From: an uncultured Woeseiaceae bacterium
GTDB taxonomy: Bacteria > Pseudomonadota > Gammaproteobacteria > Steroidobacterales > Woeseiaceae
DNA: 64,000 nt
Reading direction: 5' to 3'
Assembly (NCBI GenBank): GCA_945787845.1
Contig: CALZJH010000001.1
Location: 186,001-250,000 of the forward strand
Positions within the stretch are counted from its first letter, which is position 1. Every line of letters begins with the position of its first letter. The translations under genes were made by a program, and so were the position numbers. Below the pieces are notes generated by a model. That model did no database searches, was not told the origin of the DNA, and was given only the letters and a program-made list of their open reading frames with translations. Of the stretch, positions 14,774-61,348 are shown piece after piece.

Positions 14774-15493
14774 TTACCTGCTTGGCGTCGGTTCCTGAAA
14801 ATCGGGGTACTCGGCCCGCAGTGACTCGAGTTCCACGGCCGCCATGTCGGACAGCCCCGATTCACGCAGTGCTTCAATGCAGGCAAACCAGGTTTCGGCG
14901 GCTGAGCGGGCGTCGGCATCACAGCTGTCCACCTGTTCCTTGTCTTCGACCAGCGCCGAAAACTCTGCGGCGCGCGCAGCAGGGCGGCTCTCCCCGGATT
15001 GCAGCCTGGCCCGCTGCTCGGCTTCCTGGAGCAGGTTCATGTCGTCGACTTCGAAATCGGCCGAGGCAGAGTCCCTGTCCGGCGCGGGCTCCGCGGCGGC
15101 CGGCGGGGCGCTGAGATCCGTCACCGCCGGGCTGTCCGAACGCTTCTCGCGTTCCTGGCGCACCGCCGTATCGCTCTTCGCCGTGGCTGCGGCCTCTTCG
15201 CTGACGACGCCTTCCTCAAGGACCTCAAAGGTATCGCCGTCACTGCCACCGGCGCTCAGTGGTGCTTTGTCGGCCACCTGGGACAGCTCGAGAACGAAGG
15301 CGAGGCTCAAGCCGATCGTAGCTGCCCACGCAACGGGGCGAACCCATGCACGTGCCTTGCCGTAGGGTGAGCGCTGCGTACCCGCAGCCATCGACAGGAT
15401 CGTCCTGTCGAGTTCAGCGGGGGTCTTTTCCGACGCGAGGTCGCGGTATGCGTCCGCAACACGCGAGTCGATGTCATTTGATTCAGTGGTCAT
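14774..15493 (-). CDS. Probable membrane anti-sigma factor
   Basis: 239 residues with no family I can name from sequence alone. The N-terminus (VADAYRDLASEKTPAELDRTIL) looks like the short cytoplasmic part of anti-sigma proteins. One membrane segment at about residues 51-69 (VRPVAWAATIGLSLAFVLEL) is followed by a Ser/Glu/Ala/Pro-rich extracytoplasmic linker. The C-terminal domain has two cysteines (DSCDADARSAAETWFACIEAL) that could form a disulfide. Its ATG overlaps the stop of the upstream ECF sigma gene by four bases. That arrangement and topology are the grounds for calling it the cognate anti-sigma factor. Confidence 0.7.
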   Translation of the reverse strand: MTTESNDIDSRVADAYRDLASEKTPAELDRTILSMAAGTQRSPYGKARAWVRPVAWAATIGLSLAFVLELSQVADKAPLSAGGSDGDTFEVLEEGVVSEEAAATAKSDTAVRQEREKRSDSPAVTDLSAPPAAAEPAPDRDSASADFEVDDMNLLQEAEQRARLQSGESRPAARAAEFSALVEDKEQVDSCDADARSAAETWFACIEALRESGLSDMAAVELESLRAEYPDFQEPTPSR

Positions 15494-16047
15494 GATGTTT
15501 CTGCCGGTTCGTCAATCGCGGTCCGCAATTTGTTGACTGCATAGCGCAGTCGACTTTTTGCCGTTTCGCGGTTGCAGCCGGTAACGGCTGCGATCTGGTC
15601 GACGCTGAGTCCACCTTCTTCACGTAGCAGGAACGCATCCCGCTGTTCGTCGGGAAGCGTACCCAATGCGACCTCGAGCCGTTCCCGGGCCAGGCTTCTT
15701 TCGGTCGCGTCTTCGAGCGACTCGCCCGGGTCGCTATGAAGTTCGGGTTCGAGCGCCGTGTTGGCCGAGTGGCGCTTGTTGCGCCGCACGTAGTCTATAA
15801 AACAGTTGTGCGCGACGCGGTATAGAAAGGTGGTGAACTTTGCCGTGGGGCGATAGGTCGCGCGCGCCTTGATGATCTTGCCCCAGACATCCTGGAAAAT
15901 ATCGTCGGCGCTGTCGCGATGGCCGGAGAGCCGCAGGAGGTAGCGGTAGATCGCGTCGTTATGACGCCGGTACAGGCGTTCAAACGCCTGCACGTCACCG
16001 TCCCCGTAACGCAACATCAGGGCACTGTCATCCGGAGTGTGGGCCAT
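15490..16047 (-). CDS. ECF RNA polymerase sigma factor
   Basis: 185 residues from ATG 16047. Region 2 reads FERLYRRHNDAIYRYLLRLSGHRDSADDIFQDVWGKI, cut by typical sigma-70 helices, followed by TTFLYRVAHNCFIDYVRR. Region 4 is LPDEQRDAFLLREEGGLSVDQIAAVTGCNRETAKSRLRYAVNKLR, whose helix-turn-helix recognises -35 promoter DNA. An in-frame ATG at 16137 would add 30 residues of low-complexity sequence; neither has a strong ribosome-binding site. The open frame continues to 16422 but that extension crosses a promoter region and is unlikely to be translated. The anti-sigma gene follows with a four-base overlap. Confidence 0.87.
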   Translation of the reverse strand: MAHTPDDSALMLRYGDGDVQAFERLYRRHNDAIYRYLLRLSGHRDSADDIFQDVWGKIIKARATYRPTAKFTTFLYRVAHNCFIDYVRRNKRHSANTALEPELHSDPGESLEDATERSLARERLEVALGTLPDEQRDAFLLREEGGLSVDQIAAVTGCNRETAKSRLRYAVNKLRTAIDEPAETS

Positions 16048-16210
16048 GGCCTGAGCATAGGGGAGCGCTGACTCGCTGCAAAGTGTGGCAGTGCCCCGTC
16101 GCAGCGGCGCGGGCATGGGTTGTAGGTTGGCGGCCATCGGCGATCCCGTTGTGGTTTCACGTGTAAACGCGTTCCGCCGGCCCCCAGGGTTAAAATTTTT
16201 ATCGAAAGGC

Positions 16211-16250
16211 TTGCAAATAATAAAACTAGTGTTATAGTTGACTATAACAC
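16211..16250 (+). promoter_or_regulatory. Promoter and GntR-type operator of the small ORF/gntR/ABC operon
   Basis: -35 TTGCAA (16211-16216), 16-bp spacer, -10 TATAGT (16233-16238). A perfect inverted repeat covers the -10: GTGTTATAGT (16229-16238), two bases TG, ACTATAACAC (16241-16250). A repressor bound here would block RNA polymerase. A near copy with the same spacing lies upstream of the RND efflux operon at 61309-61348. Binding by the GntR protein encoded just downstream is inferred from autoregulation being common in YtrA-type loci. Confidence 0.78.
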
Positions 16251-16303
16251 CAACGCACCAAGCTTCTAAGGGGAAGGCCCCGGCACTACCGGGAGAAAAG
16301 AAA

Positions 16304-16477
16304 ATGAGCAAGCTGTCACCGTATATCAATGAAATTATTAGCTTTATCGTTATGCTGCTGATGCTGGTTGCCCTGGTTGCCGCACAGGCAAACGCCAGAG
16401 ACATCCGGCTCGCTGCGCTCAATGCAGCCGACGATGAAGGCGCACGAATCAGTCATTTCCGTCTCGAAGACGAGTAA
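16304..16477 (+). CDS. Small membrane or secreted protein, 57 residues
   Basis: Starts at ATG 16304 behind GGGAGAAAAG, first gene after the operator-promoter. It has one strongly hydrophobic segment, about residues 8-27 (NEIISFIVMLLMLVALVAAQ), ending in an AQA-type site that could be cleaved by signal peptidase. A charged 28-residue tail rich in Asp, Glu, Ala and Arg follows. No family recognised. It is separated from gntR by a strong terminator, so it may be the most abundant product of the operon. It could be a small envelope-stress peptide or a leader; neither is shown. A longer upstream frame (from 16238) would overlap the promoter and is rejected. Confidence 0.65.
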   Translation: MSKLSPYINEIISFIVMLLMLVALVAAQANARDIRLAALNAADDEGARISHFRLEDE

Positions 16478-16494: not shown

Positions 16495-16523
16495 GCGCCG
16501 GCCCGCGTGGCCGGCGCTTTTTT
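16495..16523 (+). terminator. Rho-independent terminator between small ORF and gntR
   Basis: A 9-bp perfect GC stem GCGCCGGCC / GGCCGGCGC, loop CGCGT, then six T residues. It lies 17 bases after the small ORF and 42 bases before gntR, so read-through or a second start is needed for gntR and the ABC genes. Confidence 0.85.
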
Positions 16524-16564: not shown

Positions 16565-16945
16565 ATGGATCCCAAATGGAATGAAGACCAGCCGATCTAT
16601 CGTCAGCTGCGCGATCGCGTAGTCGCGATGATACTGGAGGGTGTCCTCGGCGAAGGCGATGCATTGCCGTCGGTCAGGAACGTGGCGGCAGAGTACCGGC
16701 TCAATCCGCTGACCGTGTTGAAGGGATACCAGGAGCTCGTTGATGAAGGCCTGGTGGAAAAGAAGCGCGGTCGCGGCATGTTCGTGAACGAAGGTGCCCG
16801 CACTGAGCTGCTCAAGGCTGAGCGCGGACGTTTCCTGAACAAAGAGTGGCCCAAAATCATTGCGACCATCGACCGTCTGGGACTCGATGCGGCGGATCTC
16901 TTGCAACAAGAAACCAAAAAGGACACAGGAGTGGACAATGACTAG
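16565..16945 (+). CDS. GntR-family repressor, YtrA subfamily
   Basis: 126 residues: an N-terminal winged helix (DQPIYRQLRDRVVAMILEG, LPSVRNVAAEYRLNPLTVLKGYQELVDEG, VEKKRGRGMFV) and only a short helical C-terminal tail. The small size is the mark of YtrA-type GntR proteins, which lack a large ligand-binding domain and usually sit with ABC transporters and repress them. Here it is followed by an ABC ATPase (eight-base overlap) and a permease. The likely operator is the inverted repeat at 16229-16250, with a second site at 61309-61330 in front of the RND efflux operon. The inducing signal is unknown; cell-envelope antibiotics induce some relatives. Confidence 0.9.
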   Translation: MDPKWNEDQPIYRQLRDRVVAMILEGVLGEGDALPSVRNVAAEYRLNPLTVLKGYQELVDEGLVEKKRGRGMFVNEGARTELLKAERGRFLNKEWPKIIATIDRLGLDAADLLQQETKKDTGVDND

Positions 16946-17795
16946 CCTGGTCAACGCCCGGAATGTCTCCAAGCACTTTGGCTCGGTTCGCGCCGTCGAC
17001 AACGTCAGCTTTGAGATAGAACAGGGAAAGATACTTGGGTTGATCGGTCCGAATGGTGCCGGCAAAACGACGCTGCTGAAAGCCGTCCTGGGATTGACCG
17101 ATTGCGATGGCGATCTTTCGGTTCTCGGTTTCGACCCGTTCAAGCAGCGCAAGCAGCTCATGCAGAACATCTGCTTCATCGCCGATGTCGCGGTCCTGCC
17201 CCGCTGGATCAAGGTGTCGCAGATGCTCGATTTCGTCGAGTCCATCCACCCCAACTTCTCACGGGCACGCGCCGAGGAGCTGCTGCAGCAGACCAAGGTC
17301 CAGCCGGGGGCTCGCGTCAAGGAGCTGTCCAAGGGCATGGTTACCCAGCTGCACCTGTCCATCATCATGGCTATCGATGCCAAGCTGCTGGTCCTCGATG
17401 AGCCGACGCTGGGTCTCGATATCCTGTTTCGCAAAGAGTTCTACGCGAATCTTCTGAACGATTACTTTGACGAGGAACGCACGATTTTGATTACGACGCA
17501 CCAGGTTGAGGAGGTCGAGAATCTGCTCACCGACGTGATGTTCATCAACGATGGCAAGATCCTGCTGGACTCGACGATGGATTCGCTGAGTGATACCTAC
17601 GTCGAGGTCATGGCATCCGGTGAAAACGCCCAGAAGGCCCGTGGGCTTGGGCCAATTGCGGAACACGAGATGTTCGGCAAGTCCGTCATGCTGTTCGAAG
17701 GCGTCAGCCGCGAACACCTCGAGGGTCTCGGCGAAATTCGCATCCCGTCGGTGGCCGACCTGTTTGTGGCGAAGATCAAGGAGGCGCGCAGATGA
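16938..17795 (+). CDS. ABC transporter ATP-binding protein
   Basis: 285 residues from ATG 16938 (MTSLVNARNVSKHFG). Walker A GPNGAGKTTLL is at about residue 39, signature ELSKGMVTQ, Walker B LLVLDEPTLGLD, and the switch His in TTHQVEEVE. The signature is degenerate (LSKGM rather than LSGGQ), as in other YtrB-like ATPases. The C-terminal 80 residues beyond the nucleotide domain are typical of ABC-2 exporters. The start overlaps gntR by eight bases and the end overlaps the permease by four, so the three are coexpressed. Substrate unknown. Confidence 0.92.
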   Translation: MTSLVNARNVSKHFGSVRAVDNVSFEIEQGKILGLIGPNGAGKTTLLKAVLGLTDCDGDLSVLGFDPFKQRKQLMQNICFIADVAVLPRWIKVSQMLDFVESIHPNFSRARAEELLQQTKVQPGARVKELSKGMVTQLHLSIIMAIDAKLLVLDEPTLGLDILFRKEFYANLLNDYFDEERTILITTHQVEEVENLLTDVMFINDGKILLDSTMDSLSDTYVEVMASGENAQKARGLGPIAEHEMFGKSVMLFEGVSREHLEGLGEIRIPSVADLFVAKIKEARR

Positions 17796-18709
17796 TTGCT
17801 AATCAACCTGCCCTGATCCGACGGGAACTCTGGGAACACCGTTCAATTTACGTAACGCCGGCGGCCATCGGGGTCATCGTGACGCTCGGTGTACTGGCGA
17901 TGCTCATGATGGCATCGGGGTTCGCGAAAGAACTCGATCTCGCCATTTTCGGCGCGCAGAACCTTGCAGGTGATGCGGAGCGCAAAGCGGCATTGACCGT
18001 CTTTTTCCTCGGCACCTCGTGGGTCTTTCTCGTCGCCTTGATGTTCCTGACCGTTTTCTACAGCCTCGATTCCCTGTACGCGGAGCGCAAGGACAAGAGC
18101 ATACTGTTCTGGCGTTCGATGCCGGCTACGGATGCTGAAACCGTGATTTCCAAGCTCCTGACGGCGGCGATTGTCATTCCGTCCATCACGGCGGTGGGCA
18201 TCTGGCTGACGCACCTGGTTAATCTGATCGTGACCAGTCTCTGGGTTTCGGCGAAGGGCGGCGACGCCGGCACGCTGATCTGGGGGTCGATATCGTTGTT
18301 CGACAACTGGCTTGCCGCATTGATCGTGGTCGTTGCGTCGGGCCTCTGGATGTCACCGTTTATCGCCTGGTTCCTCTTCGTTTCGACGTGGGCCAAGCGC
18401 ATGCCGATTCTCATGGCATTCATGCCGCCCATCGTGCTCGGCTTGCTTGAATGGATCATATTCCGCAGCAGGTATTTCCTGACGACGGTCGGCGAGCGCG
18501 GCGACATGACGCCCTTGTTCCACGGCATGAGCCTCGAGCGGTTCTTCGAAGAAGAACAATGGCACGACGGTGTCGGGAACATCAGTCTGCTGGAGCACAT
18601 GGACCTGGTGGGATTCGTGACTGACCCCGGCTTCTGGAGCGGCTTGCTGGTCTGCGGCATCCTGACGACCGCGGCAATCTATGTCCGCCGCTATCGCGAC
18701 GACAGCTGA
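17792..18709 (+). CDS. ABC-2 type permease
   Basis: 305-residue inner membrane protein with about six hydrophobic segments. The first is near residues 24-44; the last, GLLVCGILTTAAIYV, is followed by a positive C-terminal RRYRDD. ERKDKSILFWRSMPATDAETVISKLLTA is the cytoplasmic coupling-type loop seen in ABC-2 permeases. It overlaps the ATPase gene (ATGA) and probably forms the membrane half of the exporter. Its stop is immediately adjacent to the stop of convergent pspF, with no terminator between. Confidence 0.87.
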   Translation: MIANQPALIRRELWEHRSIYVTPAAIGVIVTLGVLAMLMMASGFAKELDLAIFGAQNLAGDAERKAALTVFFLGTSWVFLVALMFLTVFYSLDSLYAERKDKSILFWRSMPATDAETVISKLLTAAIVIPSITAVGIWLTHLVNLIVTSLWVSAKGGDAGTLIWGSISLFDNWLAALIVVVASGLWMSPFIAWFLFVSTWAKRMPILMAFMPPIVLGLLEWIIFRSRYFLTTVGERGDMTPLFHGMSLERFFEEEQWHDGVGNISLLEHMDLVGFVTDPGFWSGLLVCGILTTAAIYVRRYRDDS

Positions 18710-19729
18710 CTACACCGTTCCGGGCCGGCTGCTGATATTCAGTTTCCGCAGTCTGCCGCGGAACTGGTGATAGCTGAGCCCAAGCAAGTCTGCGGCGAGG
18801 CGCTGGTTGTAGCGCGCTTTCTCCAGCGCCGCTTCGAGCAAGTCCACTTCGGTATCGATGAGTCGCTGTTTGAGATCGGCAGGCAGCAACGGCGTTTTGC
18901 GCCGCGTGATGGCCGGGCGGTCTTTCGCAGGCGCCTCCGCAATCTTGTACGGCGAATCGAAGGGGTCCAGCGAGATTTCCACCATCGGTTTGTCGGGATC
19001 GGCTGACCGATACACGGAACGCTCGATGGCAAATTTGAGTTCGCGCACGTTGCCAGGCCATTTATTCCTGAGCAATGCCGACGTTGCGCGTGCGCTGAAT
19101 CCCGGAAATAGACTCCACTTCAATTCGCTGGCCATGTTGATCGCAAACGCATGTGCCAGCGGCAATATGTCCTCCACCCGTTCTCGCAGCGGCGGCACGG
19201 TAATGACGTCGAACGCAAGCCGATCGAGCAGGTCCTTGCGAAAACGCCCATCGGCCGCCAGCGACTGCAGGTCGGCATTCGTTGAACCGACAATGCGCAC
19301 ATCGACGCGCAGTGTCTCGTTGCCACCGACGCGCTGAATTTCACCGTATTCGATCGTCCTCAGGATCTTCTCCTGCATGCGCAGCGAGATGGTGGCGAGT
19401 TCGTCCAGGATCAGGGTACCGCCATCGGCGCGCTCGAAATGCCCGATGTGCGTCCTGGCGGCCCCCGTGAATGCGCCGGCCTCGTGGCCGAACAGCTCCG
19501 ATTCGAGGATGGACTCCGTGAGAGCGGCGCAGTTGACCTTGACGACACGCTGCTCCCAGCGGTCCGACAGGAAGTGCAGTCGCGACGCGATGAGCTCCTT
19601 GCCTGTTCCCCGTTCACCGACGACCAGGACCGGCTTGGATAAGGTTGCGGCGCGCGATACGTGCTCCAGCATTTCCAGAAACGCCGGCGCTTCGCCAATG
19701 ATGGGTTGCGATTCCGGTGAGGTCGCCAT
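18710..19729 (-). CDS. pspF: Phage shock operon activator PspF
   Basis: Sigma-54 enhancer-binding protein that activates the psp operon and is inhibited by PspA. 339 residues from ATG 19729 (MATSPESQPIIGEAP). There is no N-terminal receiver domain, as expected for PspF. AAA+ domain: Walker A GERGTGKE, the sigma-54 contact loop GHEAGAFTGAART, Walker B GGTLILDELA, and NKWPGNVRELKFAIERS. The C-terminal Fis-type helix-turn-helix is YNQRLAADLLGLSYHQFRGRL. Divergent from pspA across a 187-bp regulatory region. E. coli PspF is about 325 residues. Confidence 0.93.
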   Translation of the reverse strand: MATSPESQPIIGEAPAFLEMLEHVSRAATLSKPVLVVGERGTGKELIASRLHFLSDRWEQRVVKVNCAALTESILESELFGHEAGAFTGAARTHIGHFERADGGTLILDELATISLRMQEKILRTIEYGEIQRVGGNETLRVDVRIVGSTNADLQSLAADGRFRKDLLDRLAFDVITVPPLRERVEDILPLAHAFAINMASELKWSLFPGFSARATSALLRNKWPGNVRELKFAIERSVYRSADPDKPMVEISLDPFDSPYKIAEAPAKDRPAITRRKTPLLPADLKQRLIDTEVDLLEAALEKARYNQRLAADLLGLSYHQFRGRLRKLNISSRPGTV

Positions 19730-19862
19730 GCGCAGATTAGGCCAGAAATTAGGCAAAAAGACCAATAGTTAGTCAAATCAACCAACTACAAGCGTTCTTT
19801 TCTGATGTTCTTCTAATTATTTATTCTTTACTTATCAATGGTTTAACAGCTTTTCTCTGAGT

Positions 19863-19916: not shown

Positions 19917-20597
19917 ATGGGTATTTTCACGAGATTCAGCGACATCGTGAATTCGAATATCAACGCAATCCTGGACAAGGCAGAGGATCCCGAGAAAATC
20001 GTTCGCCTGATGATCCAGGAGATGGAAGACACGCTCGTCGAGGTTCGCTCTGCCGCCGCGCGCTCCATTGCAGACAAGAAGGATCTCAATCGCAAGATCG
20101 AGGCGCTCGATCGCGAACAGAATGATTGGGAAGACAAGGCGGAGCTGGCCATGCGCAAGGGCCGTGAGGACCTGGCAAAGGCCGCGCTGGTCGAGAAGTC
20201 TCGAGTCGTGTCGGCGGTTGACGTGTTGAAAGCCGACTACGCTGCGGTCGACGAGGGCCTGGCGAAACTCAACGAGGATATCGCGCGGCTTGAAAGCAAA
20301 CTGGAGGACGCCAAAACGCGGCAGAAAGCGCTGCTCGCCCGTCACAAGACGGCAAACAGTCGGCTGGCTGCACGCAAGAAGATCCACGACTACAAGATCG
20401 ACGATGCGATGGTGAGGTTTGAGGCTTATACGCGGCGCATCGACGATGTGGAAGGTCGAGTCGAAGCCTACGACCTTGGTTTGCCCAAGGACCTCAACCA
20501 TGAGTTTGCGAGCCTCGAGGCCGAAGAGTCAGTCAAAAAGGAACTCGATGCGCTGAAGGCGCGGGTTGCGGCCGAGCGTACCGCGGAGGCTGAGTAA
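19917..20597 (+). CDS. pspA: Phage shock protein A
   Basis: Peripheral inner-membrane stress protein of the PspA/Vipp1/ESCRT-III family. 226 residues, nearly all helical: the amphipathic N-terminus MGIFTRFSDIVNSNINAILDKAEDPEKIVRLMIQEMED is nearly the family consensus, and a long coiled coil follows. It stabilises a damaged membrane and binds PspF to keep the operon off. First gene after the sigma-54 promoter, with GAGGGAAAACC upstream of the ATG. The length matches E. coli PspA (222). Confidence 0.95.
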   Translation: MGIFTRFSDIVNSNINAILDKAEDPEKIVRLMIQEMEDTLVEVRSAAARSIADKKDLNRKIEALDREQNDWEDKAELAMRKGREDLAKAALVEKSRVVSAVDVLKADYAAVDEGLAKLNEDIARLESKLEDAKTRQKALLARHKTANSRLAARKKIHDYKIDDAMVRFEAYTRRIDDVEGRVEAYDLGLPKDLNHEFASLEAEESVKKELDALKARVAAERTAEAE

Positions 20598-52022: not shown

Positions 52023-52778
52023 ATGAAAAACGTGACCCGCACAACCTTATCAATAGTTCTGCTCATGCTGGCGAGCGCTGGCATGGCGGAAACGAATGCC
52101 GAGCCCCGGCAAAGCATGACGTCGCAAGGATCGGATATTCCGCGCGGCCGAGTCGCTACCGACAATGCAACCTTCGATGAGTACGCGCCGTTGCGGACAG
52201 AGGGAACGCGAAGCAAGAAGGACACGCGTTCGGCACAGCTCAAGTCCGGTGGTGTCGTTGCCCAGTCCGGGGATCCCAACTTCTGGTTCTACGATGTGGA
52301 TCTGCAGCTGTTTGCCGATCATGATCGGGACGGCTATTTCACCGGCATCGATCTCCTGTTTGACGCCGATACGACCTATGCCGTTGCTGATGTCTATGCA
52401 GTGCTCTACCTCAGCTATGAGCTGGGACCCTGGGAAGAGTACGCGGCGACCGATGATTTCACGCTGTTTGGCAGCACGAGCGCCGATGACTACATCGTCG
52501 AAACCGAGCTCGTGTCGGGCTACCCCACGGGACACTACGACCTGCTGATCGAGCTGTTCGACGCCTATGACGGAACCTACCTCACGAGTATCGGGCCGGA
52601 CGAAACATCCGAGCTGTCAATCATTCCGCTTGAGGATGCGTCTCGTGACGTGTTCTACGGGGGCGACACCATCGTTGTCGTCGATTCGGGTGGCGGTTCC
52701 TTCGGCTTGTTCCTGCTCTTCGGACTCCTGGCCTTGCGCATGACCGTTCGGCCCCACGCGGCAAGATCGTCGAAGTAG
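52023..52778 (+). CDS. GlyGly-CTERM surface protein
   Basis: 251 residues. Signal peptide MKNVTRTTLSIVLLMLASAGMA, an extracytoplasmic domain with FYDVDLQLFADHDRDGYFTGIDLLFDADT, then the GlyGly-CTERM sorting tail: GGGSFGLFLLFGLLALR and a basic end. Such proteins are cut by rhombosortase and handed to type II secretion or the surface. The domain resembles choice-of-anchor H proteins. Its last 124 bases overlap the end of the convergent RND gene. Confidence 0.83.
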   Translation: MKNVTRTTLSIVLLMLASAGMAETNAEPRQSMTSQGSDIPRGRVATDNATFDEYAPLRTEGTRSKKDTRSAQLKSGGVVAQSGDPNFWFYDVDLQLFADHDRDGYFTGIDLLFDADTTYAVADVYAVLYLSYELGPWEEYAATDDFTLFGSTSADDYIVETELVSGYPTGHYDLLIELFDAYDGTYLTSIGPDETSELSIIPLEDASRDVFYGGDTIVVVDSGGGSFGLFLLFGLLALRMTVRPHAARSSK

Positions 52779-55777
52779 ATATACAGGGCGGGCACGACGA
52801 GCAGAGATACGACTGTTGAGAATGCGAGCCCGCCGATGATAGCTCTCGCCATCGGGTAGTACGGAGGACCGTCTCCCCCGACCTGCGTGGTACCCATGGC
52901 GAGCGGTGTCAGCCCGACAATCGTCGTGGCGACCGTCATCAGGATCGGGCGCAGGCGGTCACGGCCGGCGATCACGATCGAGCGGTTCCGCGGCACCCCT
53001 TCCTGGCGCAGGTTGTTCACGTGGTCGACGAGCACGATCCCGTTATTCACGACCACGCCGATCAGGATCATAATGCCGATCATCGCCATGAAGGAAAACG
53101 TCGTACCGGTTGCTGCAAAGAACAGAAACACGCCGAAAATCGAGAAGACGATGGAGCCGAGAATGATCGAAAACGGCAGCAGCATGGACTCGAACAGGGC
53201 CGCCATTACGAGGAAGATGCAGGCTACGCCAAGAATGATGTTGGTCATCATCATGCCGGCCGTTTCGTCCTGGCGTTCGAAGCCACGGCCTTCTTTCCAG
53301 CTGTAGCCCGGGGGCAGGTCCATCTGGCTCATCAGGCTCTTGACGCGCGGCCGAACGTCGTCAGGACTAACGTCGTCCTCGAGATTGCCCGATATGATGA
53401 CCGCGGTTTGCCGGTCGGTCCGACGGATCGTGTCGGGTGACTTGCTGATGTGCATTGTCGCCACACTGCCGAGCGTGATGCGCTGGCCATCAGGCGTGTA
53501 CAAGGGTAAGTCGGCGAGCTGCTCGATGCTTTGCTTGTCGTCCTCGCGGAACGCCAGGCGAACATCGACTTCACCCGAGCTGCCGCGGAACTCCCTCAGG
53601 TTTTCACCACGCATCGCAATCGCGATCGATTGCGCGATCTCCGCGGTCGTCAGTCCTGTATTTGCAGCGCGTGCACGGTCGATGCTGACACGAATCTCCT
53701 TATCACCGGATTCCGAGTCTGCCTGCACGTCTTTCAGCCCTTCGACCGACGACAGCGCACGTGCAATATCGACGCCCAGTTCGTTCAGGATCTCGGTCGA
53801 ATCGCCGCTGATCTGTATCGAAAAGCCTTCGCCTCCCCCTTGCTGATCAAACTGGAAGCTCGGTTTGCCGATCGCGATGGCCGGCAGGTCTTTCTCGATG
53901 CGTTCAATGATCTCGCGCGTCGACAGCGTTGCGTCATCTTCGTCGGTCAGCAGGATGGTCGACTCGGCCCGGCCCTGGTCGTAGTAGCTGTAGACCGACC
54001 GAATATTGAACTCTTCCTTGCGCGAATACAGGTAGTCTTCAATGGTGTCGACCGTGTCTTCGATCCGTTCGAGCGAGTGCTGACCCTGGACGTGATAGGG
54101 CATGAACAGGCGCCGCCCGACGTCCTGCGGGAACATGTCGAACTTCACCAGATCCTGGCCCAATGGCGGGGGCAATGGCTGCACGCCGATAATACAGATC
54201 ATGAGGATACCGAACCCGGTCCACCAGCGGTGCCCGATGATCCACTCGAGGGCGCGCACATAGCGATTGGTGAGCCGCGTGATCCAGGCGCCCGCCTTGG
54301 GCTGGGGCGGAACCGCAACCCGCGCGGCCAGCATGGGCACGAGCGTCTGCGCGATGAGCAGGGACGCGAGTAAGGCGACGATAATCGTAATCGCAACGTG
54401 CGTCAGGAAAATTGTAATGTCTACCTGCGCACCGAATACGATCGGTGCGAATACGATGATGGTGGTGAACGTGCCCGCGATAACAGCGAGTCCGACTTCC
54501 TTCACACCACTGATCGTTGCGGTGAACGGCTTGTCCGGTTCCTCACTTCGATGTCGGAAGATGCTCTCGGTAATGACGACCGCGTTGTCCACGAGCATGC
54601 CGACCGCGAGCATGAGGCCCATCATGGACAGGATATTCAGCGTCAGCCCGGCGAAGTACAGGGCGCCGAGGGTGATTAACAGGGAAAACGGAACAGACGC
54701 GGTGACAATCAGTGTCGTCGTAACCTGGCGCAGGAACAGGTAGAGCACGAGCAGCGCCAGCAGGCCACCGAGCGCTCCGGCGGTCAGCAGGTCCGACAGG
54801 GACTCGCGCACGCTTTCACCCTGGTTGTCGAGTGAGAAAATATTAATGCCCTGCATCTGCGGCAGTTTTCCGATCTTCTCGACTTCGGCGATAACGCGAT
54901 CGGTGACGTCGACAAGATTGGATCCGGTGGTTTTACTAATGGCGACGCCGATGGCGTAGTCCTGGTCGAGATGGCGACCGTAATTGCGCTCCGGAGTGCG
55001 TAACTCGACATCGGCAATGTCCTGCAGGGTCAACCCGGACGCATTGACGACGAGGGTACGGATCTCCTCGACCGAGGAGAACTCGCCGCTGGGCCGCACG
55101 CTGAAGCGTTCGCCGCCCGCCGTAATCTTGCCGGCGCTGACAGCGAAGTTGCTGCTGAGCAGGAGGTCCCTGACGCTGGCGATATCGACGCCGTAAGCGG
55201 CCAGCATGTCGGGTTTCAACAGAATACGAATTTCACGCGGGTCGACACCCTGGAGGTCGACCCGGGAGACGCCGTCGAGTCGCTCAAGACGGCGTTTCAG
55301 AATACGGTCCAGCAGTTCGTGGCTGTCGGACAGGTCGCGTTCACTTGAGATACGTAGCTGCAGAACAGGCTGGTCGCCGAGCGACCCTGTGAACACGAAA
55401 ATGCGGCGCACGTCTTCGGGCAGCAGGTCCCGAATTCCGTCAACCTTGGCGCGGGCCTCGATGCCCTTGGCGCCCATGCTGCTGTCCCAGCCGAATTGCA
55501 GGAAGATCTGCGACTGGCCTTCGCTGGAACTTGAGAACATGCGCTCGACACCGGACAAGGTCGCCAGGGCTTCCTCGACCGGGCGGGTGATCAGTCGCTC
55601 TACTTCTTCAGGCGTTGAACCGGCATACGGTATCTGGATGAAAATGCCCGGGAACTCGATATCCGGAAACTTTTCGAGCGGTAGCAATCGCGACGCAATC
55701 AGCCCCACCATGGCGAGGGCGACGAACACGACGACGGTCGTCACGGGTCGGTGTAATGCGATCTCGGTGTGCTTCAT
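52655..55777 (-). CDS. RND-family efflux pump, inner membrane subunit (second)
   Basis: 1040 residues, HAE1/AcrB-like in layout: two halves each with six membrane segments and a large periplasmic loop. LRQVTTTLIVTASVPFSLLITLGALYFAGLTLNILSMMGLMLAVGMLVDNAVVITESIF contains the conserved Asp of proton relay, and the second half has FMAMIGIMILIGVVVNNGIVLVDH. Fourth gene of the operon, its ATG overlapping the stop of the first pump by four bases. The 3' end overlaps the GlyGly-CTERM gene. Substrate unknown; paired pumps and adaptors suggest heteromeric assembly as in MdtBC. Confidence 0.93.
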   Translation of the reverse strand: MKHTEIALHRPVTTVVVFVALAMVGLIASRLLPLEKFPDIEFPGIFIQIPYAGSTPEEVERLITRPVEEALATLSGVERMFSSSSEGQSQIFLQFGWDSSMGAKGIEARAKVDGIRDLLPEDVRRIFVFTGSLGDQPVLQLRISSERDLSDSHELLDRILKRRLERLDGVSRVDLQGVDPREIRILLKPDMLAAYGVDIASVRDLLLSSNFAVSAGKITAGGERFSVRPSGEFSSVEEIRTLVVNASGLTLQDIADVELRTPERNYGRHLDQDYAIGVAISKTTGSNLVDVTDRVIAEVEKIGKLPQMQGINIFSLDNQGESVRESLSDLLTAGALGGLLALLVLYLFLRQVTTTLIVTASVPFSLLITLGALYFAGLTLNILSMMGLMLAVGMLVDNAVVITESIFRHRSEEPDKPFTATISGVKEVGLAVIAGTFTTIIVFAPIVFGAQVDITIFLTHVAITIIVALLASLLIAQTLVPMLAARVAVPPQPKAGAWITRLTNRYVRALEWIIGHRWWTGFGILMICIIGVQPLPPPLGQDLVKFDMFPQDVGRRLFMPYHVQGQHSLERIEDTVDTIEDYLYSRKEEFNIRSVYSYYDQGRAESTILLTDEDDATLSTREIIERIEKDLPAIAIGKPSFQFDQQGGGEGFSIQISGDSTEILNELGVDIARALSSVEGLKDVQADSESGDKEIRVSIDRARAANTGLTTAEIAQSIAIAMRGENLREFRGSSGEVDVRLAFREDDKQSIEQLADLPLYTPDGQRITLGSVATMHISKSPDTIRRTDRQTAVIISGNLEDDVSPDDVRPRVKSLMSQMDLPPGYSWKEGRGFERQDETAGMMMTNIILGVACIFLVMAALFESMLLPFSIILGSIVFSIFGVFLFFAATGTTFSFMAMIGIMILIGVVVNNGIVLVDHVNNLRQEGVPRNRSIVIAGRDRLRPILMTVATTIVGLTPLAMGTTQVGGDGPPYYPMARAIIGGLAFSTVVSLLVVPALYIYFDDLAAWGRTVMRKARSPKSRNKPKEPPPESTTTMVSPP

Positions 55778-58700
55778 CGCGCGACCGTGGCTTCGTCGGT
55801 TGCGCCGGCCGGCCAGCGCTTGCGGTCCATCAGCGAATAGACGACCGGGATGACCAGCAGGGTAAGCATTGTCGAAACAACGAGTCCACCAATGACGGTA
55901 ATGGCCATCGGCGTGCGCACTTCGGAGCCCTCACCAAAGCCCATCGCCATGGGCATCAGCCCGAGTGCTGTTGTTAGTGACGTCATGAGAATCGGCCGCA
56001 GGCGGGCGCTTCCCGCCTCCATGATGGCATCAACGCGTGCAATGCCTTGCGCCCGTAGCTGGTTGATCAGGTCGACCAGCACGATAGCGTTGTTGACGAC
56101 GATACCCGCGAGCATGATCACGCCAATCAAGGCCACGATGTTGATCGTGGTTCCGGTTATGAACAGTGCAAGGACGGCGCCGACAAGTGCCAGTGGAATC
56201 GTAAACAGGATAACGAAGGGATGAATAAGCGATTCAAATTGTGATGCCATCACCAGGTAGACGAGGAAGATGGCAAGCAGTAACGCAAATTGCATCGATT
56301 CAAACGACTCCTGCATTTCCTCGCTCTGTCCCGAGACAATCGCAGTGACACCGTTGGGCATTGGAATGCGACTCACGATGGCACCGGCTTCGGCCGCGGC
56401 AGCACCGAGGTCGCCATACGCGAGATTGGTCGTGATGATGGCAACCCGCTCCTGCGCAACGCGGCGGATTTCGGCCGGGCCCTGCGAGACAACGACGTCA
56501 GCAACGGCATCGAGCGTCACGGGGCGGTCGGACATCGGGTTGACGATCAGTCGACGGATTTCATCAATGCTCGACTCCCGCGTATCGACACTGCGGACCA
56601 GGACGTCGATCTTCTTGTCGCGCCACGTGTAACGCGTGGCGAGTTCGCCGCGAACATTGGCGACGACACGGTTGGCGATATCGCGAACGGCGAGGCCAAG
56701 CTTCGCGGCCCGTTCCTGGTCGAACACGATCTGGATTTCCGGGTTACCGCGCTCCACGGTCGTTTTGATGTCTGTGAAGCGGTCCGAAGAGGACATTTCC
56801 TGGATAACGGCATTACTGACGCGTGCCAGTGCGTCCAGGTCATATCCCGAAATTTCAACCTGCAGCGGACTGGCGAAAGACAGCAACGCCGGCCTGCTGA
56901 ATTCATACTGCACGCCGGGCAGGCGCGACAGCTCGTCGCGCATGACGTCCATCGCCGCATTCTCCGCGTCGCGGCCGGCTCCGGGCGCGAGCTGCACGCT
57001 CAATGAGCCCGTGTTGTCACCGGCGTCCACGGGATTCGCGTCGAGGCGGTTGCCAGTGCCCGCGACAGAGTAGTTCAGGGCAACGGCATCGATACCACTG
57101 GCAGCACGTTGCGCGACCTGGATAGCTCTGTCGGTTTCCGACAATGGCGCGCCCGGCGCCAGCCGCAGGTCGACATCAAATTCGCCCTGCGAGAACTGTG
57201 GAATAAGCTCTGTGCCGAGACGCGGCACCAAAGACATGGTCGCCGCGAATATTGCCACGGCCATGGTCACGACAGCCCAGCGGTGGTGCAGCGACCAGCG
57301 CAGCATGCGTGGATAAACGGCTGCGACCAGCGCGTAAAGTCGCTGAAAAATCCAGGTGGGGATCCACAGCAGGGCCCACATGACCCAGCTGATCACCATG
57401 AACAGGAAGCCGAATACGCGCACTATAAATGCAGACACTGCGGTGATTACGCTGACGACAAAGCGGACGATCCGTTTCAGAAACCGCACGAATGCCGACT
57501 TCGGCTCGACTTCGTAATCAGCGCTGTCGATCTCGCCTTCGTAACGGCCGCGAGCGCCGAGTGATGCGAGCATCGGGATCAGCGTCAGCGCGACGATCAG
57601 TGAAAAGACCAGCGCGAAGGTCACGGTCAGCGCCTGGTCGCGGAACAGCTGTCCTGCGATGCCGCTGATAAACACCATCGGGAAAAAGACGGCGATCGTT
57701 GTCAGGGTTGCGGCGACCACGGCAGAGGCAACCTCGGTCGTCCCGTTCTGCGCCGCCTCCACGAGACTTTGCCCCTGCTCCTTTTTCCGCACGATATTTT
57801 CGAGAACGACAATGGAGTTATCGACCAGCATCCCGACTGCGAGCGCAATGCCGCCAAGCGACATGATGTTGAGCGAAATGTCGTTGGTATACATCAACAG
57901 GAATGTGCCAATGACCGATACCGGGATGGCAATCCCCACGATAGTCGTGGACCGCGAATCCTGCAGGAACCCGTACAGGACGAGAATCGCGATCAGGCCA
58001 CCATAAATCGCGGCAAGGCGCACATCGTCCACGGCCGACGATATAAATGTGGATTGGTCGTGGACTGTGACGATGTCGATATTGTCCGGGAGGCTGTCAC
58101 GCAGCGCTTCGAGACGTCGTTCGATGCGACCCGCAACCTGGACCGTGTTGGCGTCGCCCTCCTTGTAGACGGCAAGTTCGACGGATTCCTGGCCACGGAC
58201 CCGTGTAATTGCCTCGCGCTCCTTGTAGCCGCGTTCAACGGTTGCCACGTCGCGCAGGTATACCGGGCGGTCCGCCACATAAGCGACGATGGCGTCGCGA
58301 AACTCGTCGACAGTCTGGAATTCGTTCAGCGTGCGTACGAGGAAACGCTGGTTGCCTTCCTCGAGGCGACCACCCGACAGGTTGACATTCTCGGCACGAA
58401 TGCGGGCTGCGATCTGGTCGATGCTAATACCAAGCTGGGACAGTTTTTGCTGGTCGACGCGAACCTGGATTTCGTCCTCGAGGCCACCGCTGACTTTCAC
58501 AGCAGCGGTGCCTTCCTGGGCCTCGAGGTCGGTCTTGATCCGGTCTTCGGCCAGGCGGCGCAGCGCTTTCAGCCGAGCCTCACTGGTCTCCCCGGGCGTT
58601 TCAGCCGATTCCTTGTAGAGAAGACCCAGGCGGACGATCGGTTCCGACGACGGGTCAAATCGCAGGAGCAGGGGGCGGCTGGCCTCCAGCGGCAGGAACA

Positions 58701-59049
58701 GCACGTCGAGCTTCTCGCGGACATCGACCCCGGCAATGTCCATGTCGGTGCCCCAGAGAAACTCGACCGTGACATCCGACTGACCCGAGCGTGAGACAGA
58801 GCGTACGAGGCGGACATTGCGCACCACGCCGACGGATTCCTCGATAGGTTTGGTAAGGAGGTTCTCGATTTCAACCGGCGCTGCGCCGGTCAGCTCGGTG
58901 CGTACCGTGATTGTGGGGTAGGAAATGTCCGGGAGCAGGTTCAGCTTCAGTCGCGACAGCGACACCATGCCGAACAGCACGATGGCCACCATGAACATCA
59001 CAATTGTGACGCGACGCTGTGTAGCGATTTCTATCAGGCGGCGCATCAT
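55774..59049 (-). CDS. RND-family efflux pump, inner membrane subunit (first)
   Basis: 1091 residues, HAE1-type. GTEL/TVRTELTGAAPVEIENLLTKPIEE is the typical porter start, and SLGGIALAVGMLVDNSIVVLENI has the relay Asp. About residues 500-580 is an inserted stretch not usual in this family: acidic (EIDSADYEVEPK), then extra hydrophobic segments (FVVSVITAVSAFIVRVFGFLFMVISWVMWALLWIPTW) before the second half. Third gene of the operon; overlaps the adaptor gene and the next pump gene by four bases. Confidence 0.92.
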   Translation of the reverse strand: MMRRLIEIATQRRVTIVMFMVAIVLFGMVSLSRLKLNLLPDISYPTITVRTELTGAAPVEIENLLTKPIEESVGVVRNVRLVRSVSRSGQSDVTVEFLWGTDMDIAGVDVREKLDVLFLPLEASRPLLLRFDPSSEPIVRLGLLYKESAETPGETSEARLKALRRLAEDRIKTDLEAQEGTAAVKVSGGLEDEIQVRVDQQKLSQLGISIDQIAARIRAENVNLSGGRLEEGNQRFLVRTLNEFQTVDEFRDAIVAYVADRPVYLRDVATVERGYKEREAITRVRGQESVELAVYKEGDANTVQVAGRIERRLEALRDSLPDNIDIVTVHDQSTFISSAVDDVRLAAIYGGLIAILVLYGFLQDSRSTTIVGIAIPVSVIGTFLLMYTNDISLNIMSLGGIALAVGMLVDNSIVVLENIVRKKEQGQSLVEAAQNGTTEVASAVVAATLTTIAVFFPMVFISGIAGQLFRDQALTVTFALVFSLIVALTLIPMLASLGARGRYEGEIDSADYEVEPKSAFVRFLKRIVRFVVSVITAVSAFIVRVFGFLFMVISWVMWALLWIPTWIFQRLYALVAAVYPRMLRWSLHHRWAVVTMAVAIFAATMSLVPRLGTELIPQFSQGEFDVDLRLAPGAPLSETDRAIQVAQRAASGIDAVALNYSVAGTGNRLDANPVDAGDNTGSLSVQLAPGAGRDAENAAMDVMRDELSRLPGVQYEFSRPALLSFASPLQVEISGYDLDALARVSNAVIQEMSSSDRFTDIKTTVERGNPEIQIVFDQERAAKLGLAVRDIANRVVANVRGELATRYTWRDKKIDVLVRSVDTRESSIDEIRRLIVNPMSDRPVTLDAVADVVVSQGPAEIRRVAQERVAIITTNLAYGDLGAAAAEAGAIVSRIPMPNGVTAIVSGQSEEMQESFESMQFALLLAIFLVYLVMASQFESLIHPFVILFTIPLALVGAVLALFITGTTINIVALIGVIMLAGIVVNNAIVLVDLINQLRAQGIARVDAIMEAGSARLRPILMTSLTTALGLMPMAMGFGEGSEVRTPMAITVIGGLVVSTMLTLLVIPVVYSLMDRKRWPAGATDEATVAR

Positions 59050-60155
59050 TCGGTCCCGTTGGCGACAGTCCCCGAGGCGTCGTCGGACTCTGTGGGTTCA
59101 GTCTCAGGCGGCGCGTTAATCACCGTGACCGTGGCATCCGGCTTCAGGCCGACCTGGCCAACGGTAATGACGTTGTCGGTCTCTTCGAGTCCCTCAACAA
59201 TTTCGATCATGCCGTTCTCGCCGTAGCCGGTCGTGACAGGCCGTCGAACGGCCTTGCCATCTTCTACGACAAACACACTCTCCGATCCCAGTTCCTCGAT
59301 GATCGCGCTGCGCGGTACCTGGAGCACATTGAAATGGCTGTCGTACACGATACTCAAACGACCAAACATGCCGGGTTTGATACGGCGTTCGTCGTCGTGA
59401 ATTTCTATGCTTATTTTGAATGTCCCGGTCGCGGGATCGACCACGGGACTCACGCGCGTCACGCTCGCCAGGATCCTCTGGCCGGCGAGAGCGTCGATAT
59501 CGATGGCGACCGGCTGCCCGGGCGCAATCTGTCGGTATTCGCGTTCGGGAACGTGCAGATACACTACCAGCGGATCGAGACCCGTGACGCGGTAAAGCGG
59601 ATCGCCGACCTTGATCGTATTGCCGAGCTTTATGTAGCGCTCGGAGATAACGCCGTTGATGGGCGCTCGGATCTGGGTGTAGTTCAGCTCGAGACTCGCG
59701 AGATTGTAGGAGGCCTGCAGTGCCTCCAGGTCGAAACGCAGTTTTTCGTAGTCACCTTCAGACAAGAGGCCCTTTTCTCTTAAGTCCTTATTGCGTTCGA
59801 AATCGCGCTGCATCTTGCGCAGGCGCGCACTCGACTCATTGAGTTCCAGGCGCAGGCGGTCGCCGTCAAGGCGCGCCATAACCTGACCCTTGGTCACTTC
59901 ATCGCCTTCCTCGACAAGCACCTCGCGAATCTCACCCTCAACTTTGGCAATGACATCCGCTTCTGCGAAAGCTTCAATGGGCGCGGTGCCGGAATAGACG
60001 GCCATGACGTCGCCACGCACGGGAGTGCTGGTTTCAACAGGAATCGGAGGCGATTCTTCTTCCTCCTCCGGTGTCTCGTTCTCGGCTCCCTGCTGGCAGG
60101 CGCTCAGCAGCAAGACGCACGCAATCGCTGCCGAGCTAATGCGATGTAGCTTCAT
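59046..60155 (-). CDS. RND efflux membrane-fusion lipoprotein (second)
   Basis: 369 residues from ATG 60155 behind GGGAGGA. Lipoprotein signal with LLLSACQQG. The biotinyl-lipoyl domain comes in two halves (VIAKVEGEIREVLVEEGDEVTKGQVMARLDGDRL and YTQIRAPINGVISERYIKLGNTIKVGDPLYRV) around a coiled coil with ARLRKMQRDFERNKDLREKGLL. Then the beta-barrel. Joins the inner membrane pump to an outer membrane channel. No outer membrane protein gene is in the operon; a TolC-type channel elsewhere is expected. Confidence 0.93.
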   Translation of the reverse strand: MKLHRISSAAIACVLLLSACQQGAENETPEEEEESPPIPVETSTPVRGDVMAVYSGTAPIEAFAEADVIAKVEGEIREVLVEEGDEVTKGQVMARLDGDRLRLELNESSARLRKMQRDFERNKDLREKGLLSEGDYEKLRFDLEALQASYNLASLELNYTQIRAPINGVISERYIKLGNTIKVGDPLYRVTGLDPLVVYLHVPEREYRQIAPGQPVAIDIDALAGQRILASVTRVSPVVDPATGTFKISIEIHDDERRIKPGMFGRLSIVYDSHFNVLQVPRSAIIEELGSESVFVVEDGKAVRRPVTTGYGENGMIEIVEGLEETDNVITVGQVGLKPDATVTVINAPPETEPTESDDASGTVANGTE

Positions 60156-60209
60156 GAATCCTCCCTTATGCATTGCGCCAGCCGAGTGGCGTCGTGAGCG
60201 CGGCGCGCG

Positions 60210-61286
60210 TCAGCCCGTATAACGGTCCTGGGTCTTGTTGCTTGCGAGAACTTTGCTGCCGGTTCGCAGGCCCGAGTGACCAACAACGACGATGACTTCG
60301 TCCTCGCTCAATCCACCAAGGATCTCGACGTTGCCGTCTGCCTCGATGCCGATCTGGATGGTACGCAGGGAGACCTCACCGTCAACTACCACGTAAACGG
60401 TGCTCTCTTCGTCCTCGGCGAGCAGCGCCTCAGCGGGTATCACGAGCGCGTTCTTGTGTTGCTCATACGAAATCGTGAATCGGCCGAACATACCGGGCGC
60501 GAGTTCGCCACCCGCGTTGTCGATAATGGCCGTCGCGCGAAACGTGCCGTTGCGCGTATCGATCGTCGGGCTGATGCGTTCTATCGTGGCCGGGAAGCGA
60601 ATGCCCGGCATCGACGCAACCTCGATATCCGCTGCATGGCCGACGGCAAACTTCGAAAGCTCGGACTGCGGAATCTGCAGGTAGGCAATCAGCTCCGTGG
60701 TATCGGTAATACGGAAGGCGATGTCGTTGACCTTGAGATTCTGTCCTGGCTTGATTTCGCGCGCGGCAACAATGCCGTCGATCGGCGCCCGAATCTTCGA
60801 ATAGTCGTAGGTGAGTTTCGTGAGTTCGTACAGGGCCTCGAGCGCTTCGAGTTCGTACTGCAGGCTGTCAAACATCGACGCGCTGATCAGGCCGCGCTGG
60901 TTCAGGTCGACGTTACGTTCGTACTCGGTCCGCGCACGATCGAGGTTCGCCCTGGCGGCCAGCATTTCGAGTCGCAGGCGTTCGCCGTCAAGGCGCGCCA
61001 GTACCTGCCCCGCGACAACAAGGTCACCTTCTTCGACGAGGAGTTCGACGACCTCGCCGGGAACCCGTGCGATGACCGGTGCATCGGCATCGGAAGTGAT
61101 GGTCGCGGTAGCGTCGTACTTGGCAAAAATGTCCACGCGATACGGCCGCGCAACCTCGACCGGTACCGGGGTTGACGCCAGGATGGCTTCTTCGTCCGTC
61201 ACACTGGCTTCGCCCGAGCCGCAGCCCGCCAACAAGGCCGATGCAGCCAGTGTCAGTGTCGCAATGATCGATGTTGTGGCTTTCAT
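60210..61286 (-). CDS. RND efflux membrane-fusion lipoprotein (first)
   Basis: 358 residues from ATG 61286, behind GGGGATC. Lipoprotein signal ASALLAGCGSG. Same adaptor layout as the next gene: VIARVPGEVVELLVEEGDLVVAGQVLARLDGERL, a short hairpin coiled coil, and YSKIRAPIDGIVAAREIKPGQNLKVNDIAFRI. First gene of the operon. Its promoter carries the inverted repeat shared with the gntR operon, so the YtrA-type repressor may control it. Two adaptor genes followed by two pump genes is an unusual operon content. Confidence 0.92.
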   Translation of the reverse strand: MKATTSIIATLTLAASALLAGCGSGEASVTDEEAILASTPVPVEVARPYRVDIFAKYDATATITSDADAPVIARVPGEVVELLVEEGDLVVAGQVLARLDGERLRLEMLAARANLDRARTEYERNVDLNQRGLISASMFDSLQYELEALEALYELTKLTYDYSKIRAPIDGIVAAREIKPGQNLKVNDIAFRITDTTELIAYLQIPQSELSKFAVGHAADIEVASMPGIRFPATIERISPTIDTRNGTFRATAIIDNAGGELAPGMFGRFTISYEQHKNALVIPAEALLAEDEESTVYVVVDGEVSLRTIQIGIEADGNVEILGGLSEDEVIVVVGHSGLRTGSKVLASNKTQDRYTG

Positions 61287-61308: not shown

Positions 61309-61348
61309 GTGTTGTAGTGAAGTATAACACTAGTTCGGTATAACGCAA
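61309..61348 (-). promoter_or_regulatory. Promoter and GntR-type operator of the RND efflux operon
   Basis: On the minus strand: -35 TTGCGT (61348-61343), 16-base spacer, -10 TATACT (61326-61321). The dyad GTGTTATACT, two bases, ACTACAACAC (61330-61309) overlaps the -10. A 29-base block (61335-61307) is identical at 25 positions to 16224-16252, in the same orientation to its promoter and gene. Start codon of the first gene is 22 bases downstream. Confidence 0.78.

Follow-up and report, generated by a model that had tools for sequence, protein, structure and literature searches.

In the window, by which we mean the whole stretch of 64,000 nucleotides that was analyzed, two promoter blocks of nearly the same sequence stand in front of an operon for a GntR regulator and an ABC exporter and in front of an RND efflux operon, respectively, which raises the question of whether a single regulator reads both. 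An earlier note had described the blocks, at positions 16224 to 16252 (plus strand) and 61335 to 61307 (minus strand), as identical at 25 of 29 positions. This identity was reproduced, and the next best reverse-strand match to the 29-mer in the window was 17/29, setting aside the palindromic site on the other strand (21/29).

Two putative operators and the operons behind them

Both blocks contain a 22-bp dyad of the common form GTGTTATA-N6-TATAACAC. Operator 1 at 16229 to 16250 (plus strand), GTGTTATAGT-TG-ACTATAACAC, lies over an extended -10 element (TGTTATAGT; -10 at 16233 to 16238) and pairs at 10 of 11 positions, and operator 2 at 61309 to 61330 (minus strand), GTGTTATACT-TC-ACTACAACAC, lies over the -10 element of the RND operon and pairs at 8 of 11. 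As the earlier note had described, each site has a TTGC-type -35 element, a 16-nt spacer, a -10 element within the dyad, and the same orientation relative to the downstream genes. The elements at site 1 are TTGCAA (16211 to 16216, plus strand) and TATAGT, and those at site 2 are TTGCGT (minus strand) and TATACT. A promoter scan returned TTGCAA-16-TATAGT with an upstream TG at site 1 and nothing at the scan threshold at site 2. The dyad pattern, with up to three mismatches allowed, was expected 0.04 times in the window and was found twice. A weak promoter match at 16244 to 16217 points toward the ECF sigma gene (15490 to 16137, minus strand) that is divergent from the gntR-ABC operon, and a divergent promoter in the palindrome toward this gene is possible.

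The first gene behind operator 1 (16304 to 16477, plus strand) encodes a small membrane peptide of 57 aa with one predicted transmembrane segment. The peptide had no Pfam match and is 41 to 72% identical to its relatives in the genus. In other families the same slot holds different small secreted or membrane proteins. Where a gene is present between the operator and gntR, its product was a small membrane or secreted protein (L119-L145, L259, L268, L280); the sequence of this small first gene is wholly different between families, and the gene is absent in a few. Between the small gene and gntR lies an intrinsic terminator-like hairpin (16495 to 16517, plus strand) of 9 G-C pairs followed by TTTTTT, which would keep the output of the regulator and the ABC exporter below that of the peptide. 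A hairpin with a T-run was detected at 37/75 gntR loci. The operon continues on the plus strand with gntR (16565 to 16945; 126 aa), an ABC exporter ATPase (16938 to 17795; Pfam ABC_tran), and an ABC-2 type permease (17792 to 18709; Pfam ABC2_membrane_5). The pspF (18710 to 19732) and pspA (19917 to 20597) genes directly adjoin this operon, as they do in several relatives, and no dyad was found upstream of pspF/pspA.

Behind operator 2, the minus strand carries two RND periplasmic adaptor genes, the first at 60210 to 61286 (TIGR01730 above its cut-off; HlyD_D23) and the second at 59046 to 60173 (TIGR01730 above its cut-off), followed by two RND permease genes, one of the AcrB/AcrD/AcrF family at 55774 to 59049 (PF00873, 5.4e-255) and another at 52655 to 55777 (PF00873, 1.5e-202). 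No channel gene is encoded in this operon. MdtABC-type RND operons have two adjacent, different RND permease genes and depend on an unlinked TolC. Two adjacent, different permease genes are likewise found here; unlike the MdtABC-type operons, the operon in the window has two adaptor genes, scores far below the MdtB/MdtC family cut-offs, and is differently regulated.

The putative regulator and four dyad sites in the genome

The product of gntR is a YtrA-subfamily GntR protein, an assignment based on Pfam, an AF2 model, and structure matches. Its N-terminal wHTH domain matched PF00392 with an E value of 1.2e-13 (50.9 bits over a cut-off of 27), and the AF2 model (pLDDT 90) places helices at residues 78 to 104 and 109 to 119 after the wHTH. 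A reduced C-terminal domain of about 50 aa with two helices is given as a trait of the YtrA subfamily in PMC4494728. The model matched 3tqn most closely (Z 15.2, rmsd 2.3, 108 aligned) and 2du9 of C. glutamicum (Z 14.6), with 2ek5 also among the best matches and YtrASa (6sbs) at Z 12.9. Its gene shares an operon with an ABC transporter, a trait expected in the YtrA subfamily, and the 22-bp dyad, to which GntR is predicted to bind, has the long palindrome with GT and AC far from the center that characterizes YtrA operators. The PmtR model (NF047563) gave 1.7e-13 and 50.7 bits, below its curated 200-bit cut-off, indicating that the protein is not a PmtR equivalog.

The earlier note had held that occurrence of the motif at many unrelated promoters would speak against a regulon. 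A search of the whole 3.68-Mb genome, allowing up to three mismatches, found the pattern GTGTTATANNNNNNTATAACAC at four places only, all with zero or one mismatch and none with two or three, against a chance expectation of about 0.007 sites at up to one mismatch. All four lie just upstream of a gene, and no spread over many unrelated promoters was seen. A gene for a TolC-type outer-membrane channel lies 38 bp downstream of site 3 on contig C7 (C7:228333-228354). Site 4 (C4:225402-225423) precedes P0001, a 140-aa secreted protein encoded beside a Tsp-type tail-specific protease. P0001 (L003:1036-1458, genome C4) is a fast-evolving acidic protein without a Pfam match, and its homologues are highly variable, with a common C-terminal tail that ends in QM[YF]R[RK]DI or close variants. 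It is possible that P0001 is a Tsp substrate or partner.

The genome encodes four outer-membrane efflux (OEP) proteins alongside its RND permeases, which number about 10. Three of the four OEP proteins adjoin RND genes, and the tolC on C7 is the only one without an RND gene nearby. The parts of a tripartite RND system are all present, with adaptors, PF00873 permeases, and TolC (PF02321) at an unlinked locus that shares the operator, and their assembly is predicted.

Recurrence of the dyad in relatives

The dyad pattern was carried by 54/60 relatives, usually in 2 to 5 copies, and a reversed control pattern occurred 0 to 1 times in nearly all. From 24 motif-bearing relatives, 75 regions were taken, in which the targets were gntR-ABC in 23 genomes, tolC in 21, and the RND operon in 18, with all three in 15. 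The tolC locus in the relatives lies between the PIMT gene and kdtA. One site (G053:C109, GTGTTATCGGCCGCGATAACAC) was taken as a chance occurrence, as it was off the spacer consensus and no reference gene matched.

Across 74 sites with the 22-bp GTG-N16-CAC geometry, the 16 fixed positions averaged 1.81 bits, versus about 0.1 bits in the distal flanks. A TTG at exactly the 16-nt spacing was present at 21/24 ABC, 18/19 RND, and 8/8 P0001 sites, but at only 3/23 tolC sites, where the left half of the dyad is also usually imperfect. Because of these two features, control of tolC may differ in strength or mechanism. Downstream of the dyad, another CAC is conserved at the ABC sites, perhaps an extra half-site of the kind that PMC4494728 and PMC6746942 describe for GntR proteins.

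Since the 24 genomes had been chosen by the motif itself, the test was repeated starting from the proteins, with loci picked by protein similarity alone and the upstream dyad sought afterward. A site was found within 1 kb upstream at 75/75 testable gntR loci in the named collection (53 perfect, 20 with one mismatch, and 2 with two). An upstream site was likewise present at 29/30 tolC loci (up to two mismatches) and at 30/30 RND adaptor loci (up to one mismatch). Among the 60 relatives, 50 had both a GntR orthologue (E < 1e-40) and sites, none had the orthologue only, 6 had neither, and 4 had sites only (Fisher 4e-6, uncorrected for shared ancestry). The six with neither keep tolC, yet have no dyad near it. 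The four with one to three sites and no orthologue found (G017, G026, G036, G054) are incomplete or fragmented MAGs, 73 to 92% complete. In some members of the genus that have the regulator and a tolC site, no RND adaptor matched.

The GntR protein has its closest named relatives mostly among Woeseiaceae and MAGs of other Gammaproteobacteria. Of 369 genomes sampled from the class, 20 had a close relative of GntR. Three of these 20 belong to the order of the window, and several of those from other families carry the dyad at gntR-ABC, tolC, and RND or adaptor operons. Several class-level sites with two mismatches or unmatched neighbors (e.g., L263, L270, L284-L286) were left unassigned. In some of these other families the dyad was also seen before further ABC ATPase or MacAB-like adaptor genes (L266, L278, L275). 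The same main targets are seen all through the order Woeseiales and also in gammaproteobacterial families outside it. Most of the order's other families have the RND operon and its site directly after Tsp (L118-L192); in the window's genus the RND operon is elsewhere, and Tsp is followed by the site in front of P0001. The simplest reading would be that the RND operon moved with its operator and that a copy was left behind at Tsp.

This history bears on whether the sites are alike merely through recent promoter duplication or through chance, with no shared regulation. The retention of a site at Tsp while the genus RND operon lies away from it suggests that the site moved with the operon, as duplication would have it, but across many families it is the dyad that stays conserved and the flanks that have diverged, which contradicts a merely recent copy, and the sites at tolC were not copied from the ABC promoter. 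Chance is opposed by the expectation given above, and we see next to no prospect that either explains the sites. Another factor, such as the neighboring ECF sigma or an unlinked protein, might instead read the dyad, with gntR merely one of its targets, given that the ECF gene is transcribed divergently from the operon and keeps this place in many members of the genus. In other families, however, the ECF gene was not seen nearby or was kilobases away and the dyad persists, the presence of sites tracks the GntR orthologue, and a long palindrome suits a dimeric wHTH protein rather than an ECF promoter, making this very improbable.

Some weight, though small, falls on the dyad being bound by a GntR protein that does not simply repress but activates or has a dual role. 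HpaR1, a YtrA-subfamily protein of Xanthomonas, activates engXCA (PMC6430473), a GntR regulator in an Acinetobacter ABC-pump operon was reported as an activator (PMC13104710), and the canonical -35 element is missing at the tolC sites. On the other hand, the dyads at the ABC, RND, and P0001 genes contain the -10 element and have a conserved TTGC -35 element at fixed spacing, a position typical of repression, and B. subtilis YtrA, PmtR, and YtrASa are all repressors; we consider an activating role unlikely. The dyad is very probably the operator of the GntR protein at 16565 to 16945, a repressor that would cover the -10 element and jointly control the ABC exporter, the RND pump, and TolC. The idea that a YtrA-type GntR commands a shared regulon is strongly supported by the four sites, the targets recurring across families, the protein-anchored tests, and the co-occurrence of orthologue and sites. 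The ABC exporter, the small peptide, and the RND system all stand as probable members, as the earlier note had proposed; the regulon is larger than was claimed there, adding tolC and the Tsp-side secreted protein outside the window.

A model for joint control of exporters and TolC

Described regulons offer parallels to several parts of this arrangement. In the B. subtilis YtrA regulon (ytrGABCDEF, ywoBCD), a small transmembrane gene (ytrG), a YtrA-type repressor, and an ABC transporter likewise share one operon, a second unlinked transporter operon is under the same repressor, and lipid II cycle inhibitors switch on the ytr operon (PMC12772383). Unlike the regulon here, it has no RND pump or TolC, the organism being Gram positive, and its ABC components and small protein differ. 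The operator of a Xanthomonas citri YtrA-like regulator, GGTG-N16-CACC (Zhou et al. 2017, as cited in PMC6746942), has the same geometry as GTG-N16-CAC; the papers searched showed no connection of that regulator to RND or tolC. PmtR of S. aureus is a YtrA-type repressor of an ABC exporter, Pmt, and is released by exported amphipathic peptides (PMC5080381), although the GntR protein here scores far below the PmtR family cut-off. The regulon of YtrASa from Sulfolobus acidocaldarius is similarly very small, with unlinked membrane-protein loci, a site over the transcription start, and extra half-sites, but it is archaeal, has a 14-bp core motif, and includes no identified exporters. PMC4494728, which draws on data that include 25 YtrA proteins from Gammaproteobacteria, describes YtrA-subfamily regulons as mostly single ABC operons. 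No report of YtrA joined with TolC or RND in one regulon was found in the open-licence papers searched.

We infer direct binding by GntR, repression, and the "envelope defence" role. A GntR dimer would bind the 22-bp palindrome, with its GTG and CAC ends 16 bp apart, and, once bound, would cover the -10 element and block RNA polymerase. The dyad lies over -10 elements and over the promoter of gntR itself, which points to autorepression together with co-repression of the exporters; GntR would thus repress its own operon too. A signal, perhaps damage to the envelope or a substrate of amphipathic or antibiotic-like character if B. subtilis YtrA and S. aureus PmtR are a guide, would release GntR, upon which the ABC exporter, the RND pump, and the outer-membrane channel would be made together. 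In this way the channel-less RND operon would gain the one TolC-type protein of the genome whose gene has no RND gene close by. Probably, then, one repressor turns on the whole export network together. A broader proposal, rather doubtful at present, is a conserved gammaproteobacterial "export stimulon": one YtrA-type repressor would bring together the ABC exporter, the RND pump, and TolC from their unlinked loci, and two proteins, the fast-changing one of the small first gene, upstream of a terminator, and the secreted one beside Tsp, would sense the state of the envelope or serve as adaptors to it from within the system.

The tolC gene is the most informative addition to the regulon. Across a marine sediment lineage that is mostly uncultured, and outside it as well, a single YtrA-type repressor appears to control the ABC exporter, the RND pump, and TolC together. 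Such joint control offers a testable answer to the question of how pumps that depend on an unlinked TolC are matched with it, and the 22-bp operator provides a defined handle for finding the inducing signal.
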